Part shown: positions 1 to 32,529 of the stretch, one piece after another
Layout of the letters: each line of letters starts with the position of its first letter
Numbering within the stretch: the stretch's first letter is position 1
Assembly: GCA_021108435.1 (NCBI GenBank)
Contig: JAIOQY010000177.1
Span: 1-38,784 of the forward strand
DNA length: 38,784 bases
Direction of reading: 5' to 3'
Source of the DNA: Candidatus Aegiribacteria sp.
Lineage (GTDB): Bacteria > Fermentibacterota > Fermentibacteria > Fermentibacterales > JCC-6
Position numbers and translations under genes: made by a program
Notes under the pieces: model-generated
What the model was told of the DNA's origin: nothing
Databases searched by the model: none
What the model saw: only the letters and a program-made list of their open reading frames with translations

Positions 1-1228
1 CCTTTGCTATAAGCTCCTGCATCTGACTGGCCTGTTTCTGCTTCTCAGGATCGGAATGGGTGGCCAGAGCGCGCCATTTTCTGTTTTCCTTTCTCAGGTG
101 CTTTCTCTTCTCTTCCCTGGTCCATTCGGGATCAATTCCCAGAATTGTATTCACGTCCTCAGTTTCATGAATACTTACAGGAAGAATTTTCTCGGTCATG
201 GTTCTGAATCTGTCACGATTCACACCAAGGCTTTCCGCAAGGGAGTTGACCAGATCAAGCTCAACGTCCATTGCAGTTCCATCTGCGCTGGCTACCTTCA
301 GACAGAGTTCAAGAATATCGTACTTATCACCCATTGAAGCGGCAGGAATGGGGGTCAGCTCTATCAGATCGTTACATAGATGAATCAGATCCTCAGGATC
401 AGCGCTGGCAGAGGCATCCATTGACACTTCAACAGCCCTGTTGAGCTTCTCCTTAACCTGTTCCCGATTTGATTCAGCGCTGCTGGCTATTCTCTTCTTT
501 ATCCATTCCTGGACAACAGCACCCTCAGTACCGGCAAAACTGCCGTCAACGGCACTTACTGAAACCGCAAGTTTTACCGCCAGTTCAGCTGCCCTCAACC
601 TGCTTTTCATGCTGTCAATGTAACCGGACTGAGTATTCGTATAGCTTATCCTGGATTGTGACATGGCCAATACTGTACCGTTCAGGGCTGTCAGCGATAT
701 GGTGAACAGGAGAATTCTTTCTCCCCTTGCGGGGAAGGTTAGAGTCTCAATAGGCACTGAGAGCATAGACTGCCAGTCCGGAATAAGGGACATAGTGAAA
801 GGCAGTGTGTCTATGCTGGACGAAAAGAAAGCCACCGTATCCTTGTACTGTAGATTATCCAGCGAACACAGGACAGGCTGCTGGTCATCCTCACCCTTCG
901 TGATATCGAAAAGAGTTATGGTTTTGAGTATGGGGCAGTTATTCATGGGTGCAGTGATAGATCCCTGCATCTCCACCGTAAAAACTTCCATCGAGATATC
1001 GCCAAAGTCCTTCAATTCCGAAAAAACGTAGGTCTGGAATGTTGAATGCGAGACAGGTGGCCTGGACATGCTTATTCCGCCTGTTGTTATGATTACATTT
1101 GGTGAATTCTTCTGCTGATCATTTTTATGGGCTGTTGCGGCAATTATGCTTACGATAATTATTATTATCACTATACCGCAGCAGCAGATTTCTGGAGTAT
1201 CCGTTGCAAGCATTATCAGTGCGATCAA
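1..1228 (-). CDS. Membrane-anchored TerB-domain protein with degenerate J-like C-terminus (partial)
   Basis: The frame is open from a TTG at 1228 to the left edge, giving 409 residues with the C-terminus missing. AGGAGG (1234-1239) lies 5 nt before the TTG; an in-frame ATG at 1213 is the alternative start. A hydrophobic run rich in Ile and Val (about residues 15-33, preceded by three Cys) should anchor the protein in the membrane. Residues about 45-200 are a soluble region I do not recognise. Two helical stretches with TerB/DjlA-N-like acidic motifs follow: SAVDGSF near 223 and ASADGTAMDVE near 310. From about 360 the sequence ILGIDPEWTREEKRKHLRKE resembles J-domain helices I-II, but the HPD position reads THSDPEK. 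The start lies 10 nt beyond the Hsp70 stop, in one operon with Hsp70 and GrpE-like genes. I infer a membrane co-chaperone or adaptor; the function is unproven. Confidence 0.75.
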   Translation of the reverse strand, partial: MIALIMLATDTPEICCCGIVIIIIIVSIIAATAHKNDQQKNSPNVIITTGGISMSRPPVSHSTFQTYVFSELKDFGDISMEVFTVEMQGSITAPMNNCPILKTITLFDITKGEDDQQPVLCSLDNLQYKDTVAFFSSSIDTLPFTMSLIPDWQSMLSVPIETLTFPARGERILLFTISLTALNGTVLAMSQSRISYTNTQSGYIDSMKSRLRAAELAVKLAVSVSAVDGSFAGTEGAVVQEWIKKRIASSAESNREQVKEKLNRAVEVSMDASASADPEDLIHLCNDLIELTPIPAASMGDKYDILELCLKVASADGTAMDVELDLVNSLAESLGVNRDRFRTMTEKILPVSIHETEDVNTILGIDPEWTREEKRKHLRKENRKWRALATHSDPEKQKQASQMQELIAK

Positions 1229-1237
1229 AGCAGCCTC

Positions 1238-2797
1238 CTATTCCACCTGGAAAACACGCAGGCTTGATCTCCTTCGCTCCACCTCGGACTGAGACATGTG
1301 TCCCGCCTGGGTATCGATGTCCATTTCAAGTTTCCTGCCCGATTCCTCATCTTCGAAGACGCAATGCATTCTCTGATTGGTATCGTAACTGTAACGGACC
1401 TTTACCGGTCTGTTAGTCTCCCGGTTCGGAGGCAGATCCAGATGTCCTACAGCTACGATATTTACCAGATCAGGATCAGTACTCTCAATAACGTGCTGGG
1501 TAACTTTCGCCTCTATTGCAGTCTGTCCCCTAACTGCCGTGTAGTAAGTTCTTTCAACCTGGCAAGGCAGGGTTGTATTCTTCGGAATGAGTACATCGTT
1601 TGACAGGATGTTTCTTCCCGTTTCGGCATCAAGGGCTGCGATAATAGTCCCGTAGCAGTGTCCGCAAACCTCCTTAAGCTTGATATCACCCAGGCCGGCG
1701 GCTACTCCCTCAGGAACTCTGGAGGCATCCTGTTCCATTAATTTCAACCCTGCATGAAGAGCTGCTCCAAGAGCAACACATTCATCAACATTTACCGCAA
1801 CCGTAGGAGGTTTGCCGAACATTTTTTCAAGTCTTTTCTGAATGACCGGTATTCTCGTACTTCCACCCACCAGTAATATCTTGTCTATTTCACCCGGCTT
1901 CAGTTCAGCTTCATCCAGGACATCCTCAACAAGCATATCGATCCTTGCGGTCAGGGCCGAAATGGATTCTTCGAACTGCTCCCTGCTGATCTCATGCTTG
2001 AAGCTGCCGTTATCGCCCACAAGAAGGGTTTTTGCGGTGGGACGTTTTGAAAGTGTTCTTTTTATTTCTTCAGCATCGATTTCGTATCTTGCGCGGTCTT
2101 CAGGCGTTGGAAAGAGTTCTCCCTGTTTCTCTTTACTGTAGACATCCCTGAAATTCTCAACCAGTTTCTGATCGAACTCGTACCCTCCAAGCTGGTGATC
2201 ACCGGTAGAACATATGATATCTATTGTCTTTCCATGAACATTCATTACGGTAACATCAAACGTTCCTCCACCGAGATCGAAAACCAGTATTTTCCCGGAG
2301 ACAGACTGCTCAGAAGCGTAAAACAAAGCAGCTGCTGTGGGTTCGTTTACTATTCCTATAACATTGAGACCGGCCATTTTCCCGGCATCCATTGTAGCTT
2401 TTCTTCTGATCTCGTCGAAGTATGCCGGAACAGTAATGACTACTTCGGAGATCTCCCCAACCTGCTTCGAGCAATCTTCTTTCAGCTTTCGAAGAATCAG
2501 GGAAGACAGCTCAGCCGGCGTCCACTTTTTCCCTATAACTTCCTCCGGGTAAAAAGGATCTCCCATGTATCGTTTTATCCATCGGGCGGATCTGGTGACA
2601 TCCTCAGCCCTTGCGTTGATGGCTTCATGACCCACAAGCACCGTTTCCTGATTGTCATCAGGGAAGTAGACAGCGGATGGAGTAATACGCTCCCCATCTG
2701 AATTGGGAACCGTTTCCGGCTTGCCTATGCTGTTAAGAATCGCCAATCCTGAAAAAGTGGTTCCCAGGTCTATACCTGCAATATTACTCAATTTCAT
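1238..2797 (-). CDS. Hsp70/DnaK-family chaperone, short form
   Basis: This is an Hsp70-family ATPase of about 519 residues, against roughly 610-640 for a housekeeping DnaK. The actin-like ATPase motifs are all visible: IAGIDLGTTFSG at the N-terminus, VPAYFDEIRRKATMDAG near 125, NEPTAAALFYA near 155, FDLGGGTFDVTV near 170 and LLVGGSTRIPVIQKRL near 310. A short substrate-binding beta domain follows to the end, and the helical lid of canonical DnaK is essentially absent. I chose the ATG at 2797 because IAGIDLGTT then falls near the N-terminus. An upstream ATG at 2821 in the same frame would add 8 residues. The gene overlaps the GrpE-like gene by 14 nt and is followed at 10 nt by the TerB/J-like gene. 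It is probably a specialised client-specific paralogue, not the general stress DnaK. The Hsp70 assignment is near certain; the client is unknown. Confidence 0.93.
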   Translation of the reverse strand: MKLSNIAGIDLGTTFSGLAILNSIGKPETVPNSDGERITPSAVYFPDDNQETVLVGHEAINARAEDVTRSARWIKRYMGDPFYPEEVIGKKWTPAELSSLILRKLKEDCSKQVGEISEVVITVPAYFDEIRRKATMDAGKMAGLNVIGIVNEPTAAALFYASEQSVSGKILVFDLGGGTFDVTVMNVHGKTIDIICSTGDHQLGGYEFDQKLVENFRDVYSKEKQGELFPTPEDRARYEIDAEEIKRTLSKRPTAKTLLVGDNGSFKHEISREQFEESISALTARIDMLVEDVLDEAELKPGEIDKILLVGGSTRIPVIQKRLEKMFGKPPTVAVNVDECVALGAALHAGLKLMEQDASRVPEGVAAGLGDIKLKEVCGHCYGTIIAALDAETGRNILSNDVLIPKNTTLPCQVERTYYTAVRGQTAIEAKVTQHVIESTDPDLVNIVAVGHLDLPPNRETNRPVKVRYSYDTNQRMHCVFEDEESGRKLEMDIDTQAGHMSQSEVERRRSSLRVFQVE

Positions 2798-3515
2798 CAC
2801 TTCCTTCTGGTTCTTTCTCATACAGCTTTACTTTCGCAGGGCGGATGAGTTTCCGCTGTTCCTCACTGATGTAATAGTAATAACCAGGACATATTATTTC
2901 CGAGATATGCCCCGGTTTTCCTCCTTCTCCGGCAGAGTTCTTGCCGGTTACTTCCGCAAACCTTTCCTGACCGGAATAGGGTGTATCAATCTCCGGTTGA
3001 AACTGCTCAACACCGCTTCCGTCCAGCGCAAACACAAGCTCATCGTGAATCATTTCAAGATCCTGCCGGTGAGCGTCAGAGATATCATCTGTACTTTGCA
3101 GGCGCTTTTCCACATCATCAATACACCTTATTATTCTAAGGCAGAAGCTTCTCAATATTGTCCAGTCGTAGCCATCCTGGAGCTTTCTAACCAGATTCTG
3201 CTGTTTGGACAGGTAGTCCCTGAGACTGGAAACCTGGGAGAGCAGATCAGCTGTTGAACCGTCTGAACGCCTGGCGAAATCATCAGCCGACTTGAACGCA
3301 CTGAGGGTCTCCAGGCTCTGTTTCTCCAAACCTGCCTGTACAAGCTCACTTATATCAGAGATCTGCTTTCTTACTTCCTTACGAAGATCATGCATATCAT
3401 TTGAATTCCTCTTGAAAAGAGTTCCAAGCTGTTTCGACAGTTCCTTGAACTGTTTCCCTGTAAGCAGGCCCTCTCCCTTTCCGGTTTTGTCAGCATTTTC
3501 GGTTTTCCCTGCCAT
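2784..3515 (-). CDS. GrpE-like nucleotide exchange factor
   Basis: The product is 243 residues. A charged N-terminus (residues 1-20) leads into a long heptad-rich helical stretch (about 20-125), as in the GrpE stalk. The segment YDWTILRSFCLRIIRCIDDV near 118 matches the GrpE helical-bundle region. The C-terminus (about 200-237: GHISEIICPGYYYYIS, then IRPAKVKLYEKE) matches the beta-wing core, whose family pattern is GTVxEVxxPGYxxxxxxxRPAxVxV. GrpE releases ADP from Hsp70, so this fits the partner role for the overlapping Hsp70 gene downstream. It is more divergent and longer than housekeeping GrpE (about 190-200 residues). It looks like the first gene of the module. The ATG follows a purine-rich AAGGTGAGGA. 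No clear promoter was seen upstream. Confidence 0.82.
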   Translation of the reverse strand: MAGKTENADKTGKGEGLLTGKQFKELSKQLGTLFKRNSNDMHDLRKEVRKQISDISELVQAGLEKQSLETLSAFKSADDFARRSDGSTADLLSQVSSLRDYLSKQQNLVRKLQDGYDWTILRSFCLRIIRCIDDVEKRLQSTDDISDAHRQDLEMIHDELVFALDGSGVEQFQPEIDTPYSGQERFAEVTGKNSAGEGGKPGHISEIICPGYYYYISEEQRKLIRPAKVKLYEKEPEGSDEIE

Positions 3516-3774
3516 TCCTCACCTTCCAACATTTCTGAAGTAAACTGAAATCAAGATCAGTGTCTCTGCTTGAACTGCCGTCCCTTCGCAATAAGAGTTC
3601 GTTTTTCTGTAATACAAATTGCTATGCAGAATGTATAGTGCAGTCAGTCACACACAGCATCACGAATCCACATATCTGCTTATTCTAAGGATGATATGAT
3701 ATTGAATCAAGCTCTGCCCGTTCATGAAAGACGAACATTGAAGTGCCTGATGACAAAGCTGCTTCAGAACCAGT
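3516..3774. other. Intergenic region with no recognised gene
   Basis: There are 259 nt between the GrpE-like start and the DUF2085 stop. They must hold the promoter of the chaperone module and the 3' end of the DUF2085 transcript. I found no convincing hairpin terminator or consensus -35/-10 pair, and the short open frames here show no recognisable protein. Confidence 0.5.
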
Positions 3775-4254
3775 TCATGAACCGTTTGATTTACAGCGTG
3801 ACCTGTCTATTAATAAGCACAGAAGCTGGCTCAGTCCTAACCCCCACAGGAAGCCGGTTACTATCTGAAGAAATGGAGAGACACTAATTGAGCCTTTGAA
3901 TTCCATAATCCATTGCGTCGCCATTGCTCCGGAGAAGAAGATAGATGTAAGAAGGGTAGTTTTCAATACCAATTTATTCCGTAATATCGGGAATATTATA
4001 GCGCATCCAATAAAAAATGAAATATATATTCCGGTACATCTTACACAAACTGCTGCAGGACGCCCAAATAATTGAGGGCAGCGATCTGGTATACCGTGGC
4101 ACAGAAGCTTGTATACACATCTTATCGAACCAGCCGTACTCTCCGAAGAAAGCCGTTCAAGAACCGGAGGAAGCATACCCGTAATCCAGATTGCCAGAAA
4201 AGCCAGTGCTATAAGAAGAGCCCATATCGGATAGTCACCGTTCTTTCGGATCAA
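3775..4254 (-). CDS. DUF2085 family integral membrane protein
   Basis: The product is 159 residues and starts at TTG 4254, with CAGGAG 7 nt upstream. Four hydrophobic segments are visible, at about residues 9-27, 74-91, 98-112 and 125-147. The DUF2085 signature lies at 50-80: CHGIPDRCP, then CVRCTGIYISFFIG. This is the conserved CHxxPxRS...CxRCTGIY pattern of small membrane proteins of unknown function, and the Cys residues suggest a metal or redox site. It runs the same way as the flippase-like gene at 6456-7502. The two were probably adjacent before the intervening insertion (see the repeats at 4351 and 6455). Confidence 0.85.
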   Translation of the reverse strand: MIRKNGDYPIWALLIALAFLAIWITGMLPPVLERLSSESTAGSIRCVYKLLCHGIPDRCPQLFGRPAAVCVRCTGIYISFFIGCAIIFPILRNKLVLKTTLLTSIFFSGAMATQWIMEFKGSISVSPFLQIVTGFLWGLGLSQLLCLLIDRSRCKSNGS

Positions 4255-4350
4255 TACTATCTCCTGATTCAGACTAAAAATTTTGCCGTACGATCAATTA
4301 TTCTATTAAGATCGGTCATATCGCCCCGGCTTTTTGGGTACAAGTATAAT

Positions 4351-4490
4351 GCTATTGTATTTCCGGTGGTTCTTTATCGGCAAGTTCGCTGACCTGAGAT
4401 GTTGTTACACCCTCACGAATGGCTGCTATCAGTCCGACAAGGATTATCGGCACGAACTGCGTAGTGTGGAAGAGTAATGCGAATATTCTG
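4351..4490 (-). repeat. Direct repeat copy A: duplicated 3' end of the flippase gene
   Basis: This matches 6455-6594 over 140 nt with only three differences (4357, 4358 and 4361); 4362-4490 is identical over 129 nt. It encodes the last 45 or so residues of the flippase-like protein and its TAG stop in the original frame. There is no start, and the homology breaks off abruptly at 4490/4491, so it is a gene fragment. With copy B it brackets 1,964 nt of unique DNA. The two copies are in the same orientation. Confidence 0.97.
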
Positions 4491-4829
4491 CGCGGAAACC
4501 AAAACTTGATATATCAACTACCGGAATCCATACATATTCTCTCCATAGAGGACAGAAATGTGCAGCTCTCTTAAAGAATGTCTGGGACTTGAATATGTTG
4601 AAACAGAAGGTTTATCAAAAATAATACCAGAATGCGGAGGTCCAATATAAGTCATCTTCTTCATCAAGAATCATTCAGTGACCAGATGTACTCAAGTAAA
4701 ACTTGATAATACAAGCAATTAATGATAGTTCATTCTTTGTGTAAGACACAAACAGTCTTACGTCTGCAAAAGTTTTTACACAACTAGACTTGAGAGGATT
4801 CTAATTCGTATAGTAATCGAGGTTATAAC

Positions 4830-4858
4830 TTGACACTATAGTTTATACTGAATCTATT
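4830..4858 (+). promoter_or_regulatory. Possible sigma-70-type promoter for the secreted propeller gene
   Basis: A perfect TTGACA at 4830-4835 is followed after 17 nt by TCTATT (4853-4858), a weak -10. TATACT (4844-4849) is a better hexamer but lies too close to this -35. The region is strongly A+T-rich and ends in a good ribosome site, GAGGAG at about 6 nt from the ATG at 4906. Confidence 0.4.
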
Positions 4859-4905
4859 ACTTATTATGATGCTGATTAAGGTATCATTAAATGTGAGGAG
4901 TTTCG

Positions 4906-6252
4906 ATGAGAAAGTATCGAATTGTCGTGCTGTCTTTCTGTATTCTTGCTATGGCTATCCCGAGTGCCACTATGGCTGGGGGCTACCGGGCTACTGTTCT
5001 TGATGGACCTAACTGGACTCCGTGGGATGACCGTATCAATGAACTATTTGAGACGGTCAATGGATTGTGCAGCTCGACTGATACCAACGATCCGATTTGG
5101 TTTTGCGGAGAAGGAAATCTTCTCATGAAAAAAGATGGAGACGATTGGTATGATTACAGTGGCGGAAGTTATGGAACATGTACAGATCCGCTTTATGATG
5201 TGGCTGTAAATATTGATAATCCCAACAATGTTGTTGCAGTTGGATATGATATGCGTGCCATTACGTTCGATGGAGGAAATACATGGAGGAGAACATGTTT
5301 CTTTTATCCACATCCTGATGTAGCGAGAAGTATAGTTTACGACTATACTGAGGAATGCTTCCTTTATTGCCGTGATAATGGAATAGTCGGATACGGTGGA
5401 ACCTCGAATCCTCCATTTGGTACTTGGTTTATACTTGATTATGCATGGTATCCACTAAGGGGAGTAGCTGCTGTATTAGATCTTTCAAATTTTTATTCTA
5501 TCGCAGTTGCCGTTGGAAATTATGGTAAAATTTATTACGCAGAGGATTATACAAGCGGGTTTTCGGAATTGATTGAAGCATCGGTTTCTCCAAGCACATC
5601 TGATAACTTTAATGCTGTAGATTTTTGTTGGACTGGGTCACCCGGAGTAGCTGTGGGAGATAATGGAACCATTTACTATTCAACAGACCATGGAAGGTCT
5701 TGGTTAGAAGTTTTTTCTACAATATCATGTAATCTGCATGATGTCTCATTCAATTCAGGTATAGCAACGGCTGTTGGGGATAATGGCGTAATTGTGTATG
5801 CGTATACCAGCAATATAGATCAGTGGTATTATGATGTATCTAATACAGATAAAGATCTTTTCGCTCTAAGTGATCAGAACGATTTCTCTCTTATTGCTGC
5901 AGGTGAAAAGTATGCAATGAGTTCGATAAGATCGGGACTTGATGATTTGCACACTACTGTGTTAAGTGAAGAGGAAATTCAGGGTGCATTACAAGTAGTG
6001 TCAGTCTACGGAACAGGTGCAGCACAGCTTAGATATACACCGCATGAAACGGAAGATATTCAGATTGTACTATTCGACATATCAGGTCGGGTTGTTCACG
6101 AAAGCAGGCATTCTGCAGAGATCGGAACTGAGTTTCTATTGGAATTTGATCGCTTTTCATCAGATGCAGGTGGTCTGCCAAATGGTCTTTACAGTTGCTT
6201 GTTACGTGAAGGTAATACCTACTTCACAGACACCTTTGTTATTTCAAGATAG
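4906..6252 (+). CDS. Secreted propeller-like protein with C-terminal sorting/FlgD-like domain
   Basis: The product is 448 residues. A signal peptide is clear (charged MRKYR, hydrophobic core, likely cleavage after ATMA near 25). The body has repeating units of the type AVGDNGTIYYSTDHGRSWLE, AVGNYGKIYYAED and AVGDNGVIVYAY, spaced about 45-60 residues. These match the YCF48/BNR-like beta-propeller pattern. The last 80 or so residues (QIVLFDISGRVVHESRH, then GLPNGLYSCLLREGNTYF) match the C-terminal sorting or FlgD-Ig-like tail common in FCB-group secreted proteins, which suggests export through a type IX-like route. I saw no export machinery here. The gene faces opposite to all neighbours, looks A+T-richer than they do, and sits alone inside a direct-repeat-bounded insertion. 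Its ligand or substrate is unknown. Confidence 0.85.
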   Translation: MRKYRIVVLSFCILAMAIPSATMAGGYRATVLDGPNWTPWDDRINELFETVNGLCSSTDTNDPIWFCGEGNLLMKKDGDDWYDYSGGSYGTCTDPLYDVAVNIDNPNNVVAVGYDMRAITFDGGNTWRRTCFFYPHPDVARSIVYDYTEECFLYCRDNGIVGYGGTSNPPFGTWFILDYAWYPLRGVAAVLDLSNFYSIAVAVGNYGKIYYAEDYTSGFSELIEASVSPSTSDNFNAVDFCWTGSPGVAVGDNGTIYYSTDHGRSWLEVFSTISCNLHDVSFNSGIATAVGDNGVIVYAYTSNIDQWYYDVSNTDKDLFALSDQNDFSLIAAGEKYAMSSIRSGLDDLHTTVLSEEEIQGALQVVSVYGTGAAQLRYTPHETEDIQIVLFDISGRVVHESRHSAEIGTEFLLEFDRFSSDAGGLPNGLYSCLLREGNTYFTDTFVISR

Positions 6253-6304
6253 TACTTTGATAAAAGGTTCTTAGATGCAGATGAGTTAATTAGCGTATAC
6301 TTAA

Positions 6305-6385
6305 ATATAATGACTGGACCACCACTTCTGATATGGTAACCTATCCTTATTGAAAACTTCACCAGAGGCGGCCCAGTCATTATAT
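6305..6385. repeat. Inverted repeat after the secreted protein gene
   Basis: ATATAATGACTGG (6305-6317) and its exact complement (6373-6385) form a 13-bp stem around 55 nt. A G+C-rich partial continuation (ACCACC against GGCGG) extends it inward. It lies 53 nt after the stop codon and just before repeat copy B. It could act as a terminator between the two convergent genes, or be the end of a small mobile element. There is no U-run directly after the stem. Confidence 0.6.
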
Positions 6386-6454
6386 CTACCCTTAGGCTCT
6401 ACATATACAGGAAGAATGTAGAATCTATAGAATTAGAGGAATGGCTGAAATAGC

Positions 6455-6594
6455 GCTATTCCATCTCCGGTGGTTCTTTATCGGCAAGTTCGCTGACCTG
6501 AGATGTTGTTACACCCTCACGAATGGCTGCTATCAGTCCGACAAGGATTATCGGCACGAACTGCGTAGTGTGGAAGAGTAATGCGAATATTCTG
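6455..6594 (-). repeat. Direct repeat copy B: 3' end of the intact flippase gene
   Basis: This is the counterpart of 4351-4490, offset by 2,104 nt, with 137 of 140 positions identical. It lies inside the full-length gene and contains that gene's TAG stop. Its three differences from copy A cluster next to the stop codon and change only two of the last residues (ME against IQ). Confidence 0.97.
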
Positions 6595-7502
6595 GTGTTC
6601 TCAACTGTTATTCCCACAAGACCGGGCAGTACGAGCACAAGCGCTCCGTGTACTGTTCCGGTTCCCGCAGGGGTAGGGATTAGCATTCCGAGACCGGCCA
6701 GAATCAGAACAAGCAGGGGATAATACCAGAGTACTTCGAGATGCATTGCCCTGAATACCGGCAAGACCGAAAGAGCAAGCATTCCCCAGACACAGAGCGA
6801 GTAGAATATCACCTTAATGATCTCTCTCCAGTTCTTCAGCACTTCAAGTCCGTGAGAGAAGGAAATAAGCAGACGCTCGATTTTTTCTGAAAATGATTTG
6901 AGCCTGATCCATCTGAAAGGAGCGGAGATCGCTCCCGCTGCCTGCTCCTTCCACTTCCGGAGAGAAATAAGCATAAGTAGAACGACAAAATAGAGCAACG
7001 CAGCGCCAATCAATCCAAGCCTGATAGCAGTATCAAGTTCCGTCCACAGTACAGCCAGAACGATAAGTGTCATGGTTGCCAGGGTAAGCCCATCGAATAT
7101 CCGTGCAAGCACCACTGTTGCAAATGAGGATGCTCCGGGTACTGAAGTCCGCCTTGAAAGGAGAAGTGCTCTGAGGATTTCACCAACTCTTCCGGGAAGG
7201 AGGGCATTAACCATAAAACCTGTAAGAAGAGGTCCTGACGCATCCTTCATCGAGACTTTTTCCAATGGAGACAGAAGCAGACGCCATCTTACGATTCTGA
7301 AGAAATAGCTCAAAGCCAGCGGAGGGAGAATAAGAAGGAGTACAGGCCATGACATCTCCCCGAGAGCAGACATAAGCTGAGCCATATCCATTTTTCGGTA
7401 AGTGAGAAATAGAGCTATTCCGGCTATTATTATTCCAGGAATCAGGTGTTTCCAGATAGCGTGTTTCTTCAAATCAGCGGCCTGACCCTGACGAACGCGC
7501 AT
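6456..7502 (-). CDS. Flippase-like / lysylphosphatidylglycerol synthase TM-domain membrane protein
   Basis: The product is about 348 residues of mostly hydrophobic sequence with seven or eight membrane segments. Motifs typical of the UPF0104/AglD-like (TIGR00374) family are present: SYFFRIVRWRLLLSP near 65, the NALLPGRVGEILRALLL loop near 100, and ILAGLGMLIPTPAGTGTVHG near 275. These proteins are linked to movement or modification of lipid-linked sugars in the inner membrane. The gene follows the heptose-type isomerase gene and overlaps its 3' end by 29 nt, which fits surface-glycan assembly. ATG 7502 is the chosen start; an in-frame TTG at 7514 is possible. The last 140 nt are duplicated at 4351-4490. 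The exact substrate is not known. Confidence 0.85.
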   Translation of the reverse strand: MRVRQGQAADLKKHAIWKHLIPGIIIAGIALFLTYRKMDMAQLMSALGEMSWPVLLLILPPLALSYFFRIVRWRLLLSPLEKVSMKDASGPLLTGFMVNALLPGRVGEILRALLLSRRTSVPGASSFATVVLARIFDGLTLATMTLIVLAVLWTELDTAIRLGLIGAALLYFVVLLMLISLRKWKEQAAGAISAPFRWIRLKSFSEKIERLLISFSHGLEVLKNWREIIKVIFYSLCVWGMLALSVLPVFRAMHLEVLWYYPLLVLILAGLGMLIPTPAGTGTVHGALVLVLPGLVGITVENTRIFALLFHTTQFVPIILVGLIAAIREGVTTSQVSELADKEPPEME

Positions 7503-8049
7503 ATGCCTTTTCAACTGCCGAGCAAATGGCGTGTCCGGCTATGAGAAGCTCTTCCTGTATGTGACTGGTCTCGTTTGAGAATGCTTTGACCGCAACATCG
7601 GCTTTTTCAGCAATTTCTCCTCCGTCATTACCCGTGAATCCTATGATTTTCATGGACTTTTGTCGAGCTTCCTCAACAGCTTTTATTACATTCCGCGAAC
7701 GTCCGCTCGTTGATATCGCAATCAGAACATCTCCGGGTTTTCCCAGTGCTTCCAGCTGCCTGGCAAATATCTCTGAAAAATCGTAATCATTTGCTATGGC
7801 AGTAACAACAGCAGCATTGGCCGTAATCGCTATGGCTGGAATAGCATCCCGTTCAAGGCGGAAACGTCCGACTAATTCACCTGCCAGGTGCTGAGCATCA
7901 GCAGCGCTCCCGCCGTTCCCGCAGAAGAAAATCGTTCCGCCGGAAAGAACAGATTCCACACATATATCGGACGCTTTTTCAATCATCTCACAGTTAAGCG
8001 AAGCAATCGAAGCCTTAGCGGCTTTTATGTATTTCTCTATTTCAGTCAT
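7474..8049 (-). CDS. gmhA: Sedoheptulose-7-phosphate isomerase (SIS domain, GmhA-like)
   Basis: The product is 191 residues, the usual GmhA length. It has the SIS fold with the glycine-rich FFCGNGGSAADAQHLAGELVGRF stretch near 42-64 and the sugar-phosphate loop ISTSGRSRNVIKA near 112. The C-terminal motif HIQEELLIAGHAIC carries His and Glu residues typical of the active site. GmhA converts sedoheptulose 7-phosphate to D-glycero-heptose 7-phosphate, the first step to ADP- or GDP-heptose for lipopolysaccharide or S-layer glycans. The start codon overlaps the stop of the upstream reductase gene (ATGA), so the two are probably coupled. No other heptose genes are in the window, so a related ketose-phosphate substrate remains possible. 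Confidence 0.9.
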   Translation of the reverse strand: MTEIEKYIKAAKASIASLNCEMIEKASDICVESVLSGGTIFFCGNGGSAADAQHLAGELVGRFRLERDAIPAIAITANAAVVTAIANDYDFSEIFARQLEALGKPGDVLIAISTSGRSRNVIKAVEEARQKSMKIIGFTGNDGGEIAEKADVAVKAFSNETSHIQEELLIAGHAICSAVEKAYARSSGSGR

Positions 8050-8852
8050 TTACTTATCCTCCATTTTTCAACCGCATCCCATACTGTCGGTAATTCAAGG
8101 TCTCTGGATGTGGCCAGTACTGAATAGGCAGGTCTTGGGGCGTCAAGATCAAGCTGTGCCCAGGTTGTTTCCTGAATTGTGCCGTTTACATATTCCGCAA
8201 GCATAGTGGCTAGTTCGAAAGGAGTCACCCCGGGACTGCTGGCAAGATGAAAAAGACCGGACCTACCATCAATGATAATCTTCAGAACCGCCCCGGCAAG
8301 ATCGGGCGCGTATGTCAGGCAGGCAACCTGGTCGGTGACAGCTGTAATCATGGCGTTCTCCGACAGCATTCTCCAGAAATACGGAACCATTCCCATTGAT
8401 TCTGAAAACAGCCAGGAAGTTCTTATAACAATATTATCGACAGACCCGCCAAGAGCTTCGGATTCACCCTGAAGTTTACTCTCTCCGTATATGTTAGCGG
8501 GGTACGGAGTATCACCCTCAAGAAATGGTTGAACGCGATCATACCTGCCATTGAAGACATGATCGGTTGAGAAGGTCACCAGTTTCCTGCCCGTGCGGGC
8601 AAGATTCCCGACTCCGTCTCTGTGTACTTCAAAGGCCAGTTCAGGTCTTCTCTGACAAAGATCAACGTCCGTAACAGCAGAACAGTTGATGATCCACTCG
8701 GGATCAGTTCTGTCAATTGCTCTCTTAACCGATTCAATTTCAGTTATGTCCACATCAGGAAGATCAATTCCATCCGCTTCGTTTCCAAGCAGATCCAGAA
8801 ACACTTTTCCCAGCTGCCCGTTTGCACCGGTTATCAGAAATTTCTTCTTCAC
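8046..8852 (-). CDS. dTDP-4-dehydrorhamnose reductase family protein (RmlD/RfbD-like)
   Basis: The product is 268 residues and starts at GTG 8852 after AGAGGA. It is a short-chain dehydrogenase with an N-terminal nucleotide-binding motif (ITGANGQLGKVF, residues 7-18). It also has DPEWIINCSAVTDVD near 55, the catalytic-type STDHVFNGRY near 95 and the YGESKLQGE Tyr/Lys pair near 125. RmlD reduces dTDP-4-dehydro-6-deoxy-L-mannose to dTDP-L-rhamnose with NAD(P)H. No rmlA, rmlB or rmlC lies nearby, so the exact sugar is uncertain. Its place between a CpsB-like phosphatase and GmhA supports a role in cell-surface sugars. Confidence 0.85.
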   Translation of the reverse strand: MKKKFLITGANGQLGKVFLDLLGNEADGIDLPDVDITEIESVKRAIDRTDPEWIINCSAVTDVDLCQRRPELAFEVHRDGVGNLARTGRKLVTFSTDHVFNGRYDRVQPFLEGDTPYPANIYGESKLQGESEALGGSVDNIVIRTSWLFSESMGMVPYFWRMLSENAMITAVTDQVACLTYAPDLAGAVLKIIIDGRSGLFHLASSPGVTPFELATMLAEYVNGTIQETTWAQLDLDAPRPAYSVLATSRDLELPTVWDAVEKWRISK

Positions 8853-8870
8853 TTTTCCTCTTGATTCAAT

Positions 8871-9614
8871 TCATGTCATCAACGGAAGCTTCGGTAATTC
8901 ACAGTTGTTAAGAACCATTTCAGGCATTTTTCCCGTAAGCAGATTGTAAGCACCCGGAGACACTCTGTCTACCTCATGCTTTAATTCTTCCGAAAGCAGG
9001 TTATCGCCGGGGTGGTGGGCATCCGAAGAAAGAACATGAACCATCCCGGTTTCAATAAGCCTCCAGGCTGTTTCATCTGTCGCTCCTGCTCCTGTAAGGC
9101 TTTTGGCGCAGACCTGAATACCGACTCCCATCTCTGAAAGCCTGCCTATCCTTTCCGGTCGAGTCCGGCACCATGAGTATCTCTCCGGATGGGCAAGCAA
9201 TGGTTTGAATCCCTGTTTTAAAACAGCTCTGATTCTCAATAGAGCGAATATCCAGGGCATATTGAATGAATGTTCAACCAGTACCCAGGATGTTCCCGGA
9301 AGGCACAGGACATCAAGAGCATTCGCTGATGGTTTCCACCTGTCAAGCATTACCTCTCTTGCAGCAAGGACAGAGAATTCATCTTCTATTCTCAGTCTGT
9401 TGGCAAAGGAAAGAAATTCAAGTATTCTTTTTGACTGAGAACTGAATACTCTTCCGCTGGTCGAAAGACGAAAATGAGGGGTTGCTACTAAAACAGCGGG
9501 GCGGGTCATCTGTTCTTTCATCTGACTAAAAAGCTGAGTGGATTCTTCCCAGGTTGCAGGGCCATCATCAACACCGGGAACAATATGACAGTGAAGGTCT
9601 ATTAGCTGTTGGAT
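8871..9614 (-). CDS. CpsB/CapC-family PHP-domain tyrosine phosphatase, non-canonical start
   Basis: The product is about 247 residues if it starts at ATC 9614. The PHP metal motifs appear in family order: IDLHCHIVPGVDDGP (residues 5-19), VATPHF (43-48), LLAHPERY (near 141) and SSDAHHPGD (near 196). The first ATG in frame (9521) would cut off the HCH metal ligands and the DDG motif. No ATG, GTG or TTG occurs between the upstream stop and these motifs. AGGAGG (9620-9625) sits exactly 5 nt before the ATC, so ATC is my chosen start. CpsB/CapC enzymes dephosphorylate bacterial tyrosine kinases that control capsule and exopolysaccharide chain length. No such kinase is in the window. It leads the rmlD-gmhA-flippase operon. 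Confidence 0.82.
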   Translation of the reverse strand: MQQLIDLHCHIVPGVDDGPATWEESTQLFSQMKEQMTRPAVLVATPHFRLSTSGRVFSSQSKRILEFLSFANRLRIEDEFSVLAAREVMLDRWKPSANALDVLCLPGTSWVLVEHSFNMPWIFALLRIRAVLKQGFKPLLAHPERYSWCRTRPERIGRLSEMGVGIQVCAKSLTGAGATDETAWRLIETGMVHVLSSDAHHPGDNLLSEELKHEVDRVSPGAYNLLTGKMPEMVLNNCELPKLPLMT

Positions 9615-9625
9615 GGATGCCTCCT
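9612..9625 (-). promoter_or_regulatory. Shine-Dalgarno site deciding an ATC start
   Basis: On the minus strand, a consensus AGGAGG (9625-9620), 5 nt and ATC (9614-9612) precede the CpsB-like reading frame. An ATA (9602-9600), 17 nt from the site, is the only other near-cognate codon before the metal motif. Confidence 0.55.
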
Positions 9626-9667
9626 GACCGGGTAGATGACTGAATACTGTTGGAGGGGAATATAGCC

Positions 9668-10123
9668 ATGACGATGAGTATTGTAATATCCGTCATTCTT
9701 GCTATCCTGATTTTTGTTCCCGCAGCACAGGCGAATGAGGCCAGAGCTCTTGAACGCCTGATGGTTGCTGTATCAGGTCTTGAGGATCTGGGAGATGAAA
9801 TGATCGGTGAACCTGTTACGGGAAGCTTGCCCCTCGGAGACACGGTCTCTCGCGAACTGATATTCACCAGGGAGTATATGTACTTCCTTTACATCTGGTC
9901 AGATTCATATTTCAATATCATTGAATTCTGGTTAATAAATCCTTCAGGTGATATTCACAGCATAGCTGATGGAGGTACTGCAACTCTGGCTGTTTTCCCG
10001 GATACAACGGGAAAATGGAGACTCAATATACTTCTGCATGAAGGAGCGTTTTCGGATACCGCATCATATGCAGCTGCTGTTTTCAGAGCGCCACGATATA
10101 TCAAATACTTTGACCCTGAGTGA
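9668..10123 (+). CDS. Small secreted protein of unknown function
   Basis: The product is 151 residues. ATG 9668 is chosen because GGAGGGG (9652-9658) sits 9 nt ahead and the signal peptide then starts naturally (MTMSIVISVILAILIFV, cleavage near AQA). The mature part is about 130 residues. It has aromatic-rich beta-like stretches (REYMYFLYIWSDSYFNIIEF) and a TTGKWRLNILLHEG segment that resembles a small beta-sandwich such as the pre-peptidase C-terminal type, but I cannot place it. It is divergent from the CpsB-like gene, with only about 50 nt between their starts. It overlaps the methyltransferase gene tail-to-tail by 23 nt. Confidence 0.65.
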   Translation: MTMSIVISVILAILIFVPAAQANEARALERLMVAVSGLEDLGDEMIGEPVTGSLPLGDTVSRELIFTREYMYFLYIWSDSYFNIIEFWLINPSGDIHSIADGGTATLAVFPDTTGKWRLNILLHEGAFSDTASYAAAVFRAPRYIKYFDPE

Positions 10124-10760
10124 TCTTCCTGATAAATTGCTCCGATTCTATCTGAGGAAGAATCTTAAGAGCAGCGGATGAATCTTTCCGCCCGTGCAGA
10201 ATAATGTGACCTGCCGGCTTTCCTGCGGGACCCACCGGTTGAAGTATCTCGGGAGCAATTCCTGCCGACTTACATCCAAGTATCATCTTCGGTAGAAGAG
10301 CGGGTCTGTTGATCATGATGAACAACCCCCCGGAAATAAGCAGATGAGCGGAGGCTCTGATAAAATAGTAGAGGAGCAGATCTGAACCTGACCTGGAGAT
10401 ACGTCGCGTTCTGACAGGACTGCTCCTGCCGGAAGTGATCTTTCCGAATGGAGGATTCATAATTACCGCATCGGTGATTGCACCTGTAAGTATACGCGGA
10501 ACTGCTTCGACATCACAGCATATCCCTGCCAGATCAATGTGTTTTCTCCGGAGTCTGATGGATCTGATCATCATTTGAAGCAATTCTATCTGAACATCGA
10601 TTCCGATCCATCTGCAATCCGCATTCAGGGCGGAGGATGCCAGAATTGCGCCACCGCTTCCACAACCGAGTTCGATCACGACTGAACCGGGAGGAACAGC
10701 AAGAGAAGATGCAAGAAGCAGAGTATCCGTTGTCACAGATGTCATCTGGTCCTGATACAA
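10101..10760 (-). CDS. TrmN6-like SAM-dependent methyltransferase (tRNA1(Val) A37 N6 type)
   Basis: The product is 219 residues and starts at TTG 10760. It is a class I methyltransferase: SAM-binding motif I is VIELGCGSGGAIL (near 28-40), the acidic motif II is WIGIDVQIELL (near 51), and the base-flipping motif is NPPFGK (near 101). The NPPF motif, small size and order of elements match the TrmN6/YfiC family, which methylates N6 of A37 in tRNA-Val. Other N6-adenine or RNA methyltransferases share this motif, so the substrate is an inference. Its 3' end overlaps the convergent secreted-protein gene. Confidence 0.78.
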   Translation of the reverse strand: MYQDQMTSVTTDTLLLASSLAVPPGSVVIELGCGSGGAILASSALNADCRWIGIDVQIELLQMMIRSIRLRRKHIDLAGICCDVEAVPRILTGAITDAVIMNPPFGKITSGRSSPVRTRRISRSGSDLLLYYFIRASAHLLISGGLFIMINRPALLPKMILGCKSAGIAPEILQPVGPAGKPAGHIILHGRKDSSAALKILPQIESEQFIRKITQGQSI

Positions 10761-10794
10761 TTAGATATCGCAGGGAAGGACAACCGTCTCACAG

Positions 10795-11406
10795 CTACCT
10801 GTAAGAAGCCTTGGCTGCACCCCATGTGTAATGCTCTTCGGTGTAATCTCCATGTCTGTAATCAGACCATCTTTTTATCGACCATAACCCGTAGTTGTCC
10901 TCGATCATTAGAAATATCACTCGTCCTCTGGCCGGGTTGTCCCATCCGCAATACTCACTGCCTGCTGCTACTATTTCATAGTCCCGGAATATCTCGGCTG
11001 AATCGGATGGTGCCACCGGATCTGGAAACTCGGCGACAGTGCTCATTATGAAGGACGCCTTGGTGGAATCCGGGAATCCCGAACCTTCAACCGCGGCAAA
11101 AATATTCAGTACCGTGTTCTGCTCAACTTCATAATCCCAGTTGCTGAAATCCCATGAATACTCTGCTATGTCGGCGTCATCCGCCAGAAACATATAGGAG
11201 GAATCACAGCATGCCATGAACATCGAGATGGATCTGCCCTCAAAGGAATTTGAAAGATTTAATACTACTGTGGAAGGGGCATATGGCTGATACCAGGGGA
11301 TGTCATCATTGGGATTTGGATACTCCGGGTCTCTGGGATCAAAAAATGAACATGAGACGGCAAGAAGCAGTATGGAGATGCTTGACAGAATGAGCAGAGT
11401 TTTCAT
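10795..11406 (-). CDS. Lipoprotein of unknown function
   Basis: The product is 203 residues. A lipoprotein signal with lipobox LAVSC (Cys 19) is followed by a Pro/Asp-rich linker (FFDPRDPEYPNPNDDIPWYQ). The rest is a single soluble domain rich in Tyr and Trp with several Cys. Near the end comes a stretch of the kind RVIFLMIEDNYGLWSIKRW, seen in NTF2-like or lumazine-like folds where a Trp-x-Ile-x-x-Trp pattern ends the domain. I do not recognise the family. It follows the barrel protein gene at 15 nt, so the two are likely co-expressed and may both act at the outer membrane. Confidence 0.7.
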   Translation of the reverse strand: MKTLLILSSISILLLAVSCSFFDPRDPEYPNPNDDIPWYQPYAPSTVVLNLSNSFEGRSISMFMACCDSSYMFLADDADIAEYSWDFSNWDYEVEQNTVLNIFAAVEGSGFPDSTKASFIMSTVAEFPDPVAPSDSAEIFRDYEIVAAGSEYCGWDNPARGRVIFLMIEDNYGLWSIKRWSDYRHGDYTEEHYTWGAAKASYR

Positions 11407-11421
11407 TTGTTCACCTTCAGT

Positions 11422-13245
11422 CTAGAACTGGTAATTAAGCCCGACATCAGCCTTCCAGTAGCTTGGTCTGTCATCTGAATAAAAGGTCCTTGTTACGCGG
11501 AGAGACAGAATTCCATTATTCAGGTTCATTCTCGTCCGCAGCCCGACATGGTGCATGTGATCGATCAGTGAAGGATTACCGGAAGCTAGATAGTTCCTCT
11601 GAGAGTACTCCCAGGAATAATTGGGAGTGAGCCCGATCTTTTCACTGATGTGAAAACCCATATTCAAGGTAATGGTATTGTTTATTATCTCCTCGGATCT
11701 GCTGAAAACCGAGTTGTCAAAACTTCCCTGATCCCGGAAATCGAATGTGTTGGAAACACCCAGAGTGGTGCTGTCTTCAGATACTCTCATAAATGATGTT
11801 GTGGAAACAAGTCTTCTGAACAGCAGGTCTGATCCTTCAGCTTTGACCTCCGGAAAAAGAAACGTTGTGTAATCAGCACTGATCTTGATTGTTTCCTGCA
11901 GTGTCCAGCTGCCACCCGGAAAATACCTGAATCCCGGGTTGAAACTGTATGTAGATGAAATTTTGCTGTTCGCAGATTGCTCCGCCATCAGATAAACGGT
12001 TTTTCTGCTCTGTCCCTGGATACTCGCATCCAGCGTCACTTTGCTGCTCAGCGGGATCTCCGCGGAAAGAGAAAGAGCTTCCCTCAGTATATCGTAATCG
12101 TTGTTATCCCTGTATTCATTCCCAAAGCCATCAGTCCATTCTCCATATGTATCAGACTTGCTAAGCTGAATCAGCCGTTCAAATGTAATCCGGCTGTCCC
12201 CCGGAGTATATTGAAGGTTGGACGAAAAGACTCTGTTATCACTGATATCGTATACATCGAAAAGTGTCGAAACTCCCGTGGCTGTACGTTTTCTATCGTT
12301 ACGATTGAGTGAGCGAGAGAGAGACATGGTCAGTTCAAGATCATCAATTATCTGATATCGCAGGGAAGAAGAGATACTTCGCTTTCGATCCAGCCTGTCC
12401 CGTACATCTCCCTCGGAACTGCTGGTATCAGGATCATCCTCTTCCCAGAAATGATCCATGTAATCCCATCCGGTAGTAATCTCCATACTCAGATACTCAA
12501 ATGGAGACGGTATTACAAAAGTCAGGTCACTGTACCAGTTATCCTGCCACATACAATTGGCCGAATCATGATATACGGAAAACTGGCTTGATGCTCCGGC
12601 CTGAGCGGTAAGATTGCCGCCGTTGAAAACCTGCGGAAATCCGTAACTCAGCCTGGCGGTAAGCTGATCAGTTCCTTTATCTATCTTATCACCATTTCTT
12701 CTCTCCTCTCCAAATGTAATATTCGCGTTAAGAGTACTGAAAATGTTTTTACTCAGGGAGATGTCTACATCGCTCACTCCTCCCTGATCATGGCCTGTTA
12801 TTGTGCTGTCTCCGGATGGGTTCATGTAATCCACGAAATGTGCTCCGAGTTTCATATCGATCGACAGCCATGATGTCGGAGAATAACGTATCTGACCAGA
12901 GGTGGTGTTTTCCAGCTGATCCTTGATTAAAGTACCATAGCTCTCTTTAGTGCTGATATTTCTGGAAAGATTTATTCCGAACTCCAGTCCGGATCCGGGA
13001 CGAAATGTCACGCTGGCGGATCCGTTACGGTTTTCAGTAAAACTCTGATTGCCCTTTTCCTTCTTTGCTGAGAATGAAGCATTGGCATTCATTGTGATCC
13101 TGGATGTGAGCTGGTGCACCAGAGATATTGAATTTAGAAGTGTACGGCTATCCTTGATTTGATCAAGTGAAATATCATATCCCACTGAAACAGCTTTGAG
13201 TACTGAAATAAACAGAATAAGCAGTAATACTATGGATTTCTTCAT
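11422..13245 (-). CDS. Outer-membrane beta-barrel-like protein
   Basis: The product is 607 residues. A signal peptide (MKKSIVLLLILFISVLKAVS) is followed by continuous alternating polar/hydrophobic stretches of 9-12 residues with Asn/Asp-rich turns. Examples are SASVTFRPGSGLEFGINLSR near 80 and TITLNMGFHISEKIGL near 530. The chain ends ADVGLNYQF, a terminal aromatic typical of barrels assembled by BamA. I count room for well over 20 strands, but no named porin or receptor family is recognisable. The start overlaps the ksgA stop by 4 nt (ATGA), which links it to an rRNA methylase transcript. The lipoprotein gene follows it. Confidence 0.75.
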   Translation of the reverse strand: MKKSIVLLLILFISVLKAVSVGYDISLDQIKDSRTLLNSISLVHQLTSRITMNANASFSAKKEKGNQSFTENRNGSASVTFRPGSGLEFGINLSRNISTKESYGTLIKDQLENTTSGQIRYSPTSWLSIDMKLGAHFVDYMNPSGDSTITGHDQGGVSDVDISLSKNIFSTLNANITFGEERRNGDKIDKGTDQLTARLSYGFPQVFNGGNLTAQAGASSQFSVYHDSANCMWQDNWYSDLTFVIPSPFEYLSMEITTGWDYMDHFWEEDDPDTSSSEGDVRDRLDRKRSISSSLRYQIIDDLELTMSLSRSLNRNDRKRTATGVSTLFDVYDISDNRVFSSNLQYTPGDSRITFERLIQLSKSDTYGEWTDGFGNEYRDNNDYDILREALSLSAEIPLSSKVTLDASIQGQSRKTVYLMAEQSANSKISSTYSFNPGFRYFPGGSWTLQETIKISADYTTFLFPEVKAEGSDLLFRRLVSTTSFMRVSEDSTTLGVSNTFDFRDQGSFDNSVFSRSEEIINNTITLNMGFHISEKIGLTPNYSWEYSQRNYLASGNPSLIDHMHHVGLRTRMNLNNGILSLRVTRTFYSDDRPSYWKADVGLNYQF

Positions 13246-32422: not shown

Positions 32423-32425
32423 TTT

Positions 32426-32518
32426 GGGGCCGGGCCTAACATTTAAACATTTACATCATCGCTTCACGGGGACATACAACCCCCACATTAGAAATGTTTA
32501 AATGTTAGGCCCGGCCCC
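32426..32518. repeat. REP/MITE-like long palindrome
   Basis: Two 27-nt arms (32426-32452 and 32492-32518), starting GGGGCCGGGCCTAAC and then ATTTAAACATTT, are perfect inverted copies around a 39-nt loop. The loop has its own small hairpin (GGGG/CCCC). The G-rich tips and length resemble REP-type elements moved by Y1 transposases. It sits between convergent DUF6485 and pfkA stops, where it could terminate both transcripts. No transposase is present. Confidence 0.9.
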
Positions 32519-32529
32519 CAAAGACAACA

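Follow-up and report, generated by a model that had tools for sequence, protein, structure and literature searches.

The analysed stretch, referred to below as the window, comprises 38,784 nt and corresponds to one contig (C177) of a Candidatus Aegiribacteria genome that is 95.6% complete and distributed over 218 contigs. On its minus strand it carries an intact core flippase-like gene (6456–7514) of the LPG_synthase_TM family (PF03706, Pfam 1e-44; NCBIfam TIGR00374, 6e-22), whose product ends in EPPEME. The SIS-RmlD gene order upstream of the flippase gene is conserved in relatives. Downstream of its stop codon lie a short spacer, an A+T-rich segment with a single gene (cassette B), a detached copy of the flippase 3′ end, and a group of chaperone-type genes (cassette A).

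A repeat search of the window returned one family of direct repeats, with a unit of 145 nt and two copies, R1 (4346–4490) and R2 (6450–6594), at a spacing of 2104. The unit is the 3′ end of the flippase gene on the minus strand, with approximately 43 last codons and the stop codon. R2 is continuous with the gene and represents its native end; R1 has its own stop codon and is truncated at 4490. Base-by-base comparison revealed five mismatches, at 4349, 4350, 4357, 4358 and 4361, all of them among the first 16 bases on the left (4346–4361), near or slightly past the flippase stop codon. The two copies agree at 129 of 129 bp from 4362 to 4490 (BLAST E 3e-65, far above chance). This confirms the 137 of 140 identical positions counted in a previous sequence-only reading of this DNA and extends the unit to its full 145 nt. 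The encoded protein ends are EPPEME in R2 and EPPEIQ in R1. No further copy was detected elsewhere in the genome, and the searched congeners contained at most one copy per genome. When the right flanks of R1 and R2 were compared with each other, no likeness was found past 4490 and 6594. The step from 4490 to 4491, where the flippase copy ends and unrelated A+T-rich DNA begins, is thus marked as a putative illegitimate joint.

The two copies enclose 1,964 nt of A+T-rich DNA with a gene oriented oppositely to the flippase, as the same reading had described. Most of this segment is cassette B (4491–6417, plus strand), in which G+C-content is 0.34 at 4491–4905, 0.41 in the lone gene and 0.37 at 6253–6417, versus 0.47–0.49 in the flippase, core, HSP70 and GrpE genes. 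The lone gene (P0001; 4906–6252, plus strand; 448 aa) is the only long open reading frame (ORF) between the repeats. Its product has a signal-peptide-like N terminus (judged by eye) and a YCF48/BNR-type repeat (PF14870, 1.2e-6), and its C-terminal ~80 residues are common to other proteins of the genus at 25–35% identity in the congener search. This C-terminal stretch appears sorting-domain-like, but no T9SS sorting-domain model matched the product. From these features, the lone gene probably encodes a secreted or surface protein.

No full-length relative of the lone gene was found in the congeners or in the genome_contigs, viral_contigs and plasmids sets. Cassette B as a whole had no congener match except for a short stretch at 6307–6366, and it shared no likeness, at 17 identical bases, with other parts of the window or with the adjoining contig. 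Searches of window positions 1–12,000 against Rfam and of the tested cassette A and B genes with PADLOC, four cassette A genes among them, returned no matches. As noted from the letters alone, no recombinase is seen in the segment; Pfam and inspection by eye found none among its ORFs, nor among the long ORFs of the neighbouring cargo up to the first core gene of the next contig.

Cassette A occupies the left part of the window on the minus strand. Its R1-side end is a gene for a DUF2085 membrane protein (3775–4254; PF09858, 1.7e-15), followed by a GrpE-type gene (2784–3515; PF01025, 1.6e-10), an HSP70-type gene (1238–2821; PF00012, 7.5e-99) and a gene of 409 aa in the window (1–1228), which continues into contig C37 and encodes 415 aa in the congener G011. 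An M48 peptidase gene on C37 completes the cassette, which spans window positions 1–4254 and C37:77–1234 (L077). Window positions 1–55 are the exact reverse complement of C37 positions 1–55, and this end overlap identifies C37 as the neighbour that continues the locus leftward. The join is supported by the collinearity of cassette A in G011, where the M48 peptidase, 415-aa protein, HSP70, GrpE and DUF2085 genes form one run (L078:1509–6883); G011 C7:1584–6172 is 73.6% identical over 4.6 kb to the stretch from C37:1150 to window position 3515. The best relative of the DUF2085 protein is also on G011 C7 (54%), with GrpE as its neighbour there as well. In G011, cassette A (C7) is located at another site than the flippase gene (C76). 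Of 23 other genomes, G011 alone was found to carry the GrpE gene, which identifies cassette A as accessory; it is sporadic in the genus.

In ten congeners (G001, G002, G003, G007, G009, G010, G012, G013, G014 and G016), 136–197 bp separate the flippase stop codon from a ferredoxin-like gene, named by its cysteine pattern. The same gap measures 12,497 bp here, across C37 and the window, and its inner 7.6 kb consist of the two stacked cassettes, with R1 as the seam between them. The closest species have different contents in the gap. In G015, a DUF6868 gene ~40 bp away from the flippase is the only cargo. In G006, the DUF6868 gene is followed by 8.2 kb that carry an RND efflux operon and a gene for a TetR regulator. 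In G008, ~100 bp separate the flippase from a type I methylase gene. Here and in G006, the cargo begins at one common point, ~60 bases behind the DUF6868 stop codon. The same core flanks with differing cargo characterize the gap as a hotspot of changing content. Among the Pfam-scanned proteins and the other ORFs inspected by eye, the hotspot cargo here includes no integrase or transposase gene, and its only such trace is a solo IS110 end, described below. The earlier proposal of a 2.1-kb insertion between the flippase and DUF2085 is only partly supported: cassette A was itself acquired and is found elsewhere in G011, and the variable stretch amounts to 7.6 kb.

The motif GAATCT flanks the 7.6-kb stretch on either side, which could be taken for a target duplication. 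This was rejected, as G006 has the left spacer beyond GAATCT; with that spacer in common, it is more likely that G015 lost a stretch between the two GAATCT copies. Past DUF6868, the ferredoxin–flippase gap of the clade holds more secreted-protein-like genes (L077:1284–6000; L079/L039 of G006). These genes are absent in the ten congeners with the short gap, and the hotspot extends beyond the part contained in the window.

The outer flanks of the repeats distinguish the two copies. Between the flippase stop codon and the variable region, positions 6418–6455 form a spacer that aligns with G015 positions 595–640 and has weaker likeness in G008 and G006; the part directly left of R2 (6421–6455) matches the flippase flank of G015, and less so those of the other two. 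The left flank of R1 does not align with the relatives' flank, and past 4346 it is the upstream region of DUF2085. This pattern places R2 in the original position and marks R1 as the addition. Since R2 keeps the ancestral flank, DUF2085 beside R1 is not the original neighbour, and on these alignments the flippase–DUF2085 adjacency is not ancestral. The empty site suggested previously, with DUF2085 directly after the flippase gene, was found in no close relative. DUF2085 genes near the flippase in some congeners (e.g., G005 and G009) were set aside as a different paralogue, with 23–31% identity.

Integrative elements are known to insert into gene 3′ ends, as e14 and phi21 do at icd, producing direct repeats of the 3′ end and a restored gene. 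In such elements, the gene-side copy arrives with the element. A site-specific element that used the flippase 3′ end as its attachment site, with the gene end restored and the recombinase acting in trans, would leave near-identical gene-end repeats around its cargo and an intact gene, both of which are present. However, the flippase-side copy R2 has the ancestral flank, opposite to the expected pattern, and, in contrast to e14 and phi21, neither the unit nor the cargo next to it showed an integrase or other recombinase. No second copy of the flippase end was detected where the G006 cargo ends on its far side. A search for the same cargo elsewhere, recommended by the sequence-only reading, found the R-flanked unit at no other site in this genome and in none of the congeners. 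Taken together, these observations make a site-specific integrative element highly improbable.

The ends of the two copies also differ in their affinities. In R1, the final 9 coding bases (EIQ and stop) are the same as in G006 and unlike those of R2, and the R2 end (EME) is nearer to G015 and G008 (EMK). This suggests that R1 derives from a second flippase allele, although the assignment rests on two bases and may be a coincidence. The differing terminal alleles and the G006-like end of R1 suggest two parents rather than an in-place copy. Over the 129 shared positions, relatives have 8–9 differences from R1 and R2, whereas R1 and R2 have none between them; the duplication event is thus recent and younger than the species splits.

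A tandem duplication within one chromosome, doubling cassette B together with the flippase end, with one copy mostly lost as cassette A entered, would produce the head-to-tail orientation and the 129 identical bases. It would also require a further deletion that stopped precisely at the copy's stop codon, and no second trace of cassette B was found to the left of R1. A second parent accounts better for the unlike terminal codons and for the resemblance of the R1 end to G006, and we consider such a duplication improbable.

That the contig comes from an assembly bears on the repeat structure. The repeats could reflect a loop in the assembly graph. In that case, the chromosome might lack cassette B, which would be carried by a separate or strain-specific molecule, or the loop might represent a strain mixture or several tandem copies of the repeat and cassette B. 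The genome is fragmented, as the contig count indicates, and the exact 55-base overlap between the window and C37 is consistent with a de Bruijn assembler run at k = 55, the value probably used here; such k-mers alone cannot cross the 129-bp repeat. With k = 55, the repeat must have been crossed by read or pair information. Against an artefact, the ends of R1 and R2 differ, and the joint between R1 and 4491 could not have been assembled without real reads. As a free circle, the 2.1-kb unit would be without a replication gene, and a simple chimaera does not explain why the flippase tail is cut at 4490. An assembly effect is judged unlikely, if slightly less so than the duplication within one chromosome.

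Directly behind the lone gene, a hairpin (6302–6388; fold z −4.35) contains an IS110-family left-end relic (6307–6377, plus strand), identified by homology to left ends in G003. Its 60 bp at 6307–6366 have 87% identity to the stretch just before the start of IS110-type transposase genes in that genome. The IS110-family element is present in four copies in G003 and one in G001, and one G003 copy was assigned by Pfam to Transposase_20/DEDD_Tnp_IS110. No PF01548 match to an IS110-type transposase was obtained in this genome, which identifies the hairpin as a solo relic; it may now act as a terminator. Weak hairpin matches of 22–24 bp in the same genome and in G006 were dropped, having no IS110-type end. 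Transposition by an IS110-family element, with the hairpin as its remnant, is suggested by the homology of the hairpin to the G003 left end. On the other side, the genome lacks the transposase, ~70 bases of one end are left and the right end was not seen, and IS110 transposition would not copy a 145-bp gene end. The relic does not account for that copy, and we give this origin almost no credence. Nothing was found in favour of a mover acting in trans, which the sequence-only reading had invoked; IS110 is the one transposon type to have left a trace at this locus. Housekeeping recombination at a place whose cargo changes across species suffices, and no special mover is needed.

We conclude that the repeats are probably a recombination scar, left when two cassettes were stacked by housekeeping recombination at a hotspot without an integrase. 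Under this model, the clade would swap accessory genes behind the flippase by homologous recombination in the conserved flanking genes. One parent would have carried cassette A, from the M48 peptidase gene to DUF2085, directly against a flippase end with the EIQ allele. In the other, the ancestral spacer would have separated the lone gene of cassette B from a flippase end with the EME allele. A single homologous crossover within the flippase tail, together with one joint formed without homology at 4490/4491, would then have linked a DNA piece from one parent to the other and generated the present order, in which both cassettes are kept, the flippase is intact, and R1 remains as a residual tail at the seam. 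The acquired DNA is bordered by a duplicated stretch of the resident gene, the 129 bases identical in R1 and R2. The repeats, the gap of variable content, the ancestral flank of R2 and the sporadic occurrence of cassette A are observed directly, and both parents, the succession of events and the recombination route are inferred; neither a strain with the flippase beside DUF2085 nor one with cassette B alone was found in a comparison set of one genome per species.

Two routes could have produced the joint: a single crossover of a trimmed, recircularized fragment (Campbell-type), or homology-facilitated illegitimate recombination of a linear fragment (PMC3240628). The final sequence does not separate them. 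Campbell-type integration through the flippase 3′ end, as proposed from the sequence alone, fits the structure and is one of these two favoured routes, but R2 rather than R1 keeps the ancestral flank.

The closest known systems support the plausibility of a recombination scar. After conjugation in E. coli, 56 of 60 selected recombinants had a duplicated gene end, 109–950 bp long in the 14 that were sequenced, and these duplications were explained by a single crossover of a partly degraded (trimmed), recircularized molecule (PMC3240628). Those recombinants resemble the present locus in the gene-end duplication beside acquired DNA, the putatively one-sided homology and the dispensability of a site-specific recombinase; they were selected clones, whereas here both the event and its parents are reconstructed from sequence (PMC3240628). 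For Vibrio T6SS loci, sequential displacement of cargo by a homology route has been proposed; there too, cargo enters through homology in a conserved neighbour, older cargo is kept further back, and gene 3′ ends are left over (PMC5361080). The Vibrio cargo consists of effector–immunity genes, in contrast to the chaperone-type cassette, the lone secreted-protein gene and the one seam observed here (PMC5361080). Many chromosomal hotspots are likewise without mobile elements and have recombining flanks (PMC5635113). Like the present gap, such integrase-less hotspots combine the same core flanks with cargo that varies by genome and contains no mobile-element genes; they were described in many strains of one species, and our comparison is across species (PMC5635113).

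The locus is therefore most likely an unusually clear example of an ordinary mechanism and not a new type of element. It adds an instance of a known process in a lineage that has been little studied, and it may be read as a fossil of how an uncultivated lineage gains genes without mobile-element machinery. What fills the gap differs between sister species (efflux operon, restriction-type methylase, chaperone cassette or lone secreted protein), and at this locus one seam is preserved. In practical terms, where gene-tail repeats are found, it should be checked which copy has the ancestral flank before an integrative element is named.

It is very unlikely, in our estimate, that the R-flanked 2.1-kb unit is live or reversible, either through loss and regain by RecA between R1 and R2 or as a circle moved in trans with a borrowed gene tail. 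If it were, production of the lone secreted protein would be phase-variable, and the flippase tail would serve as a portable homing sequence for integrase-less cassettes.

Apart from the flippase locus, an inverted pair of ~30 bp (GGGGCCGGGCCTAACATTTAAACATTT...) was observed at window positions 32423–32522. It is 97–100% identical to a single 31-bp stretch near G006 C5:102167 and looks like a dispersed palindromic repeat.
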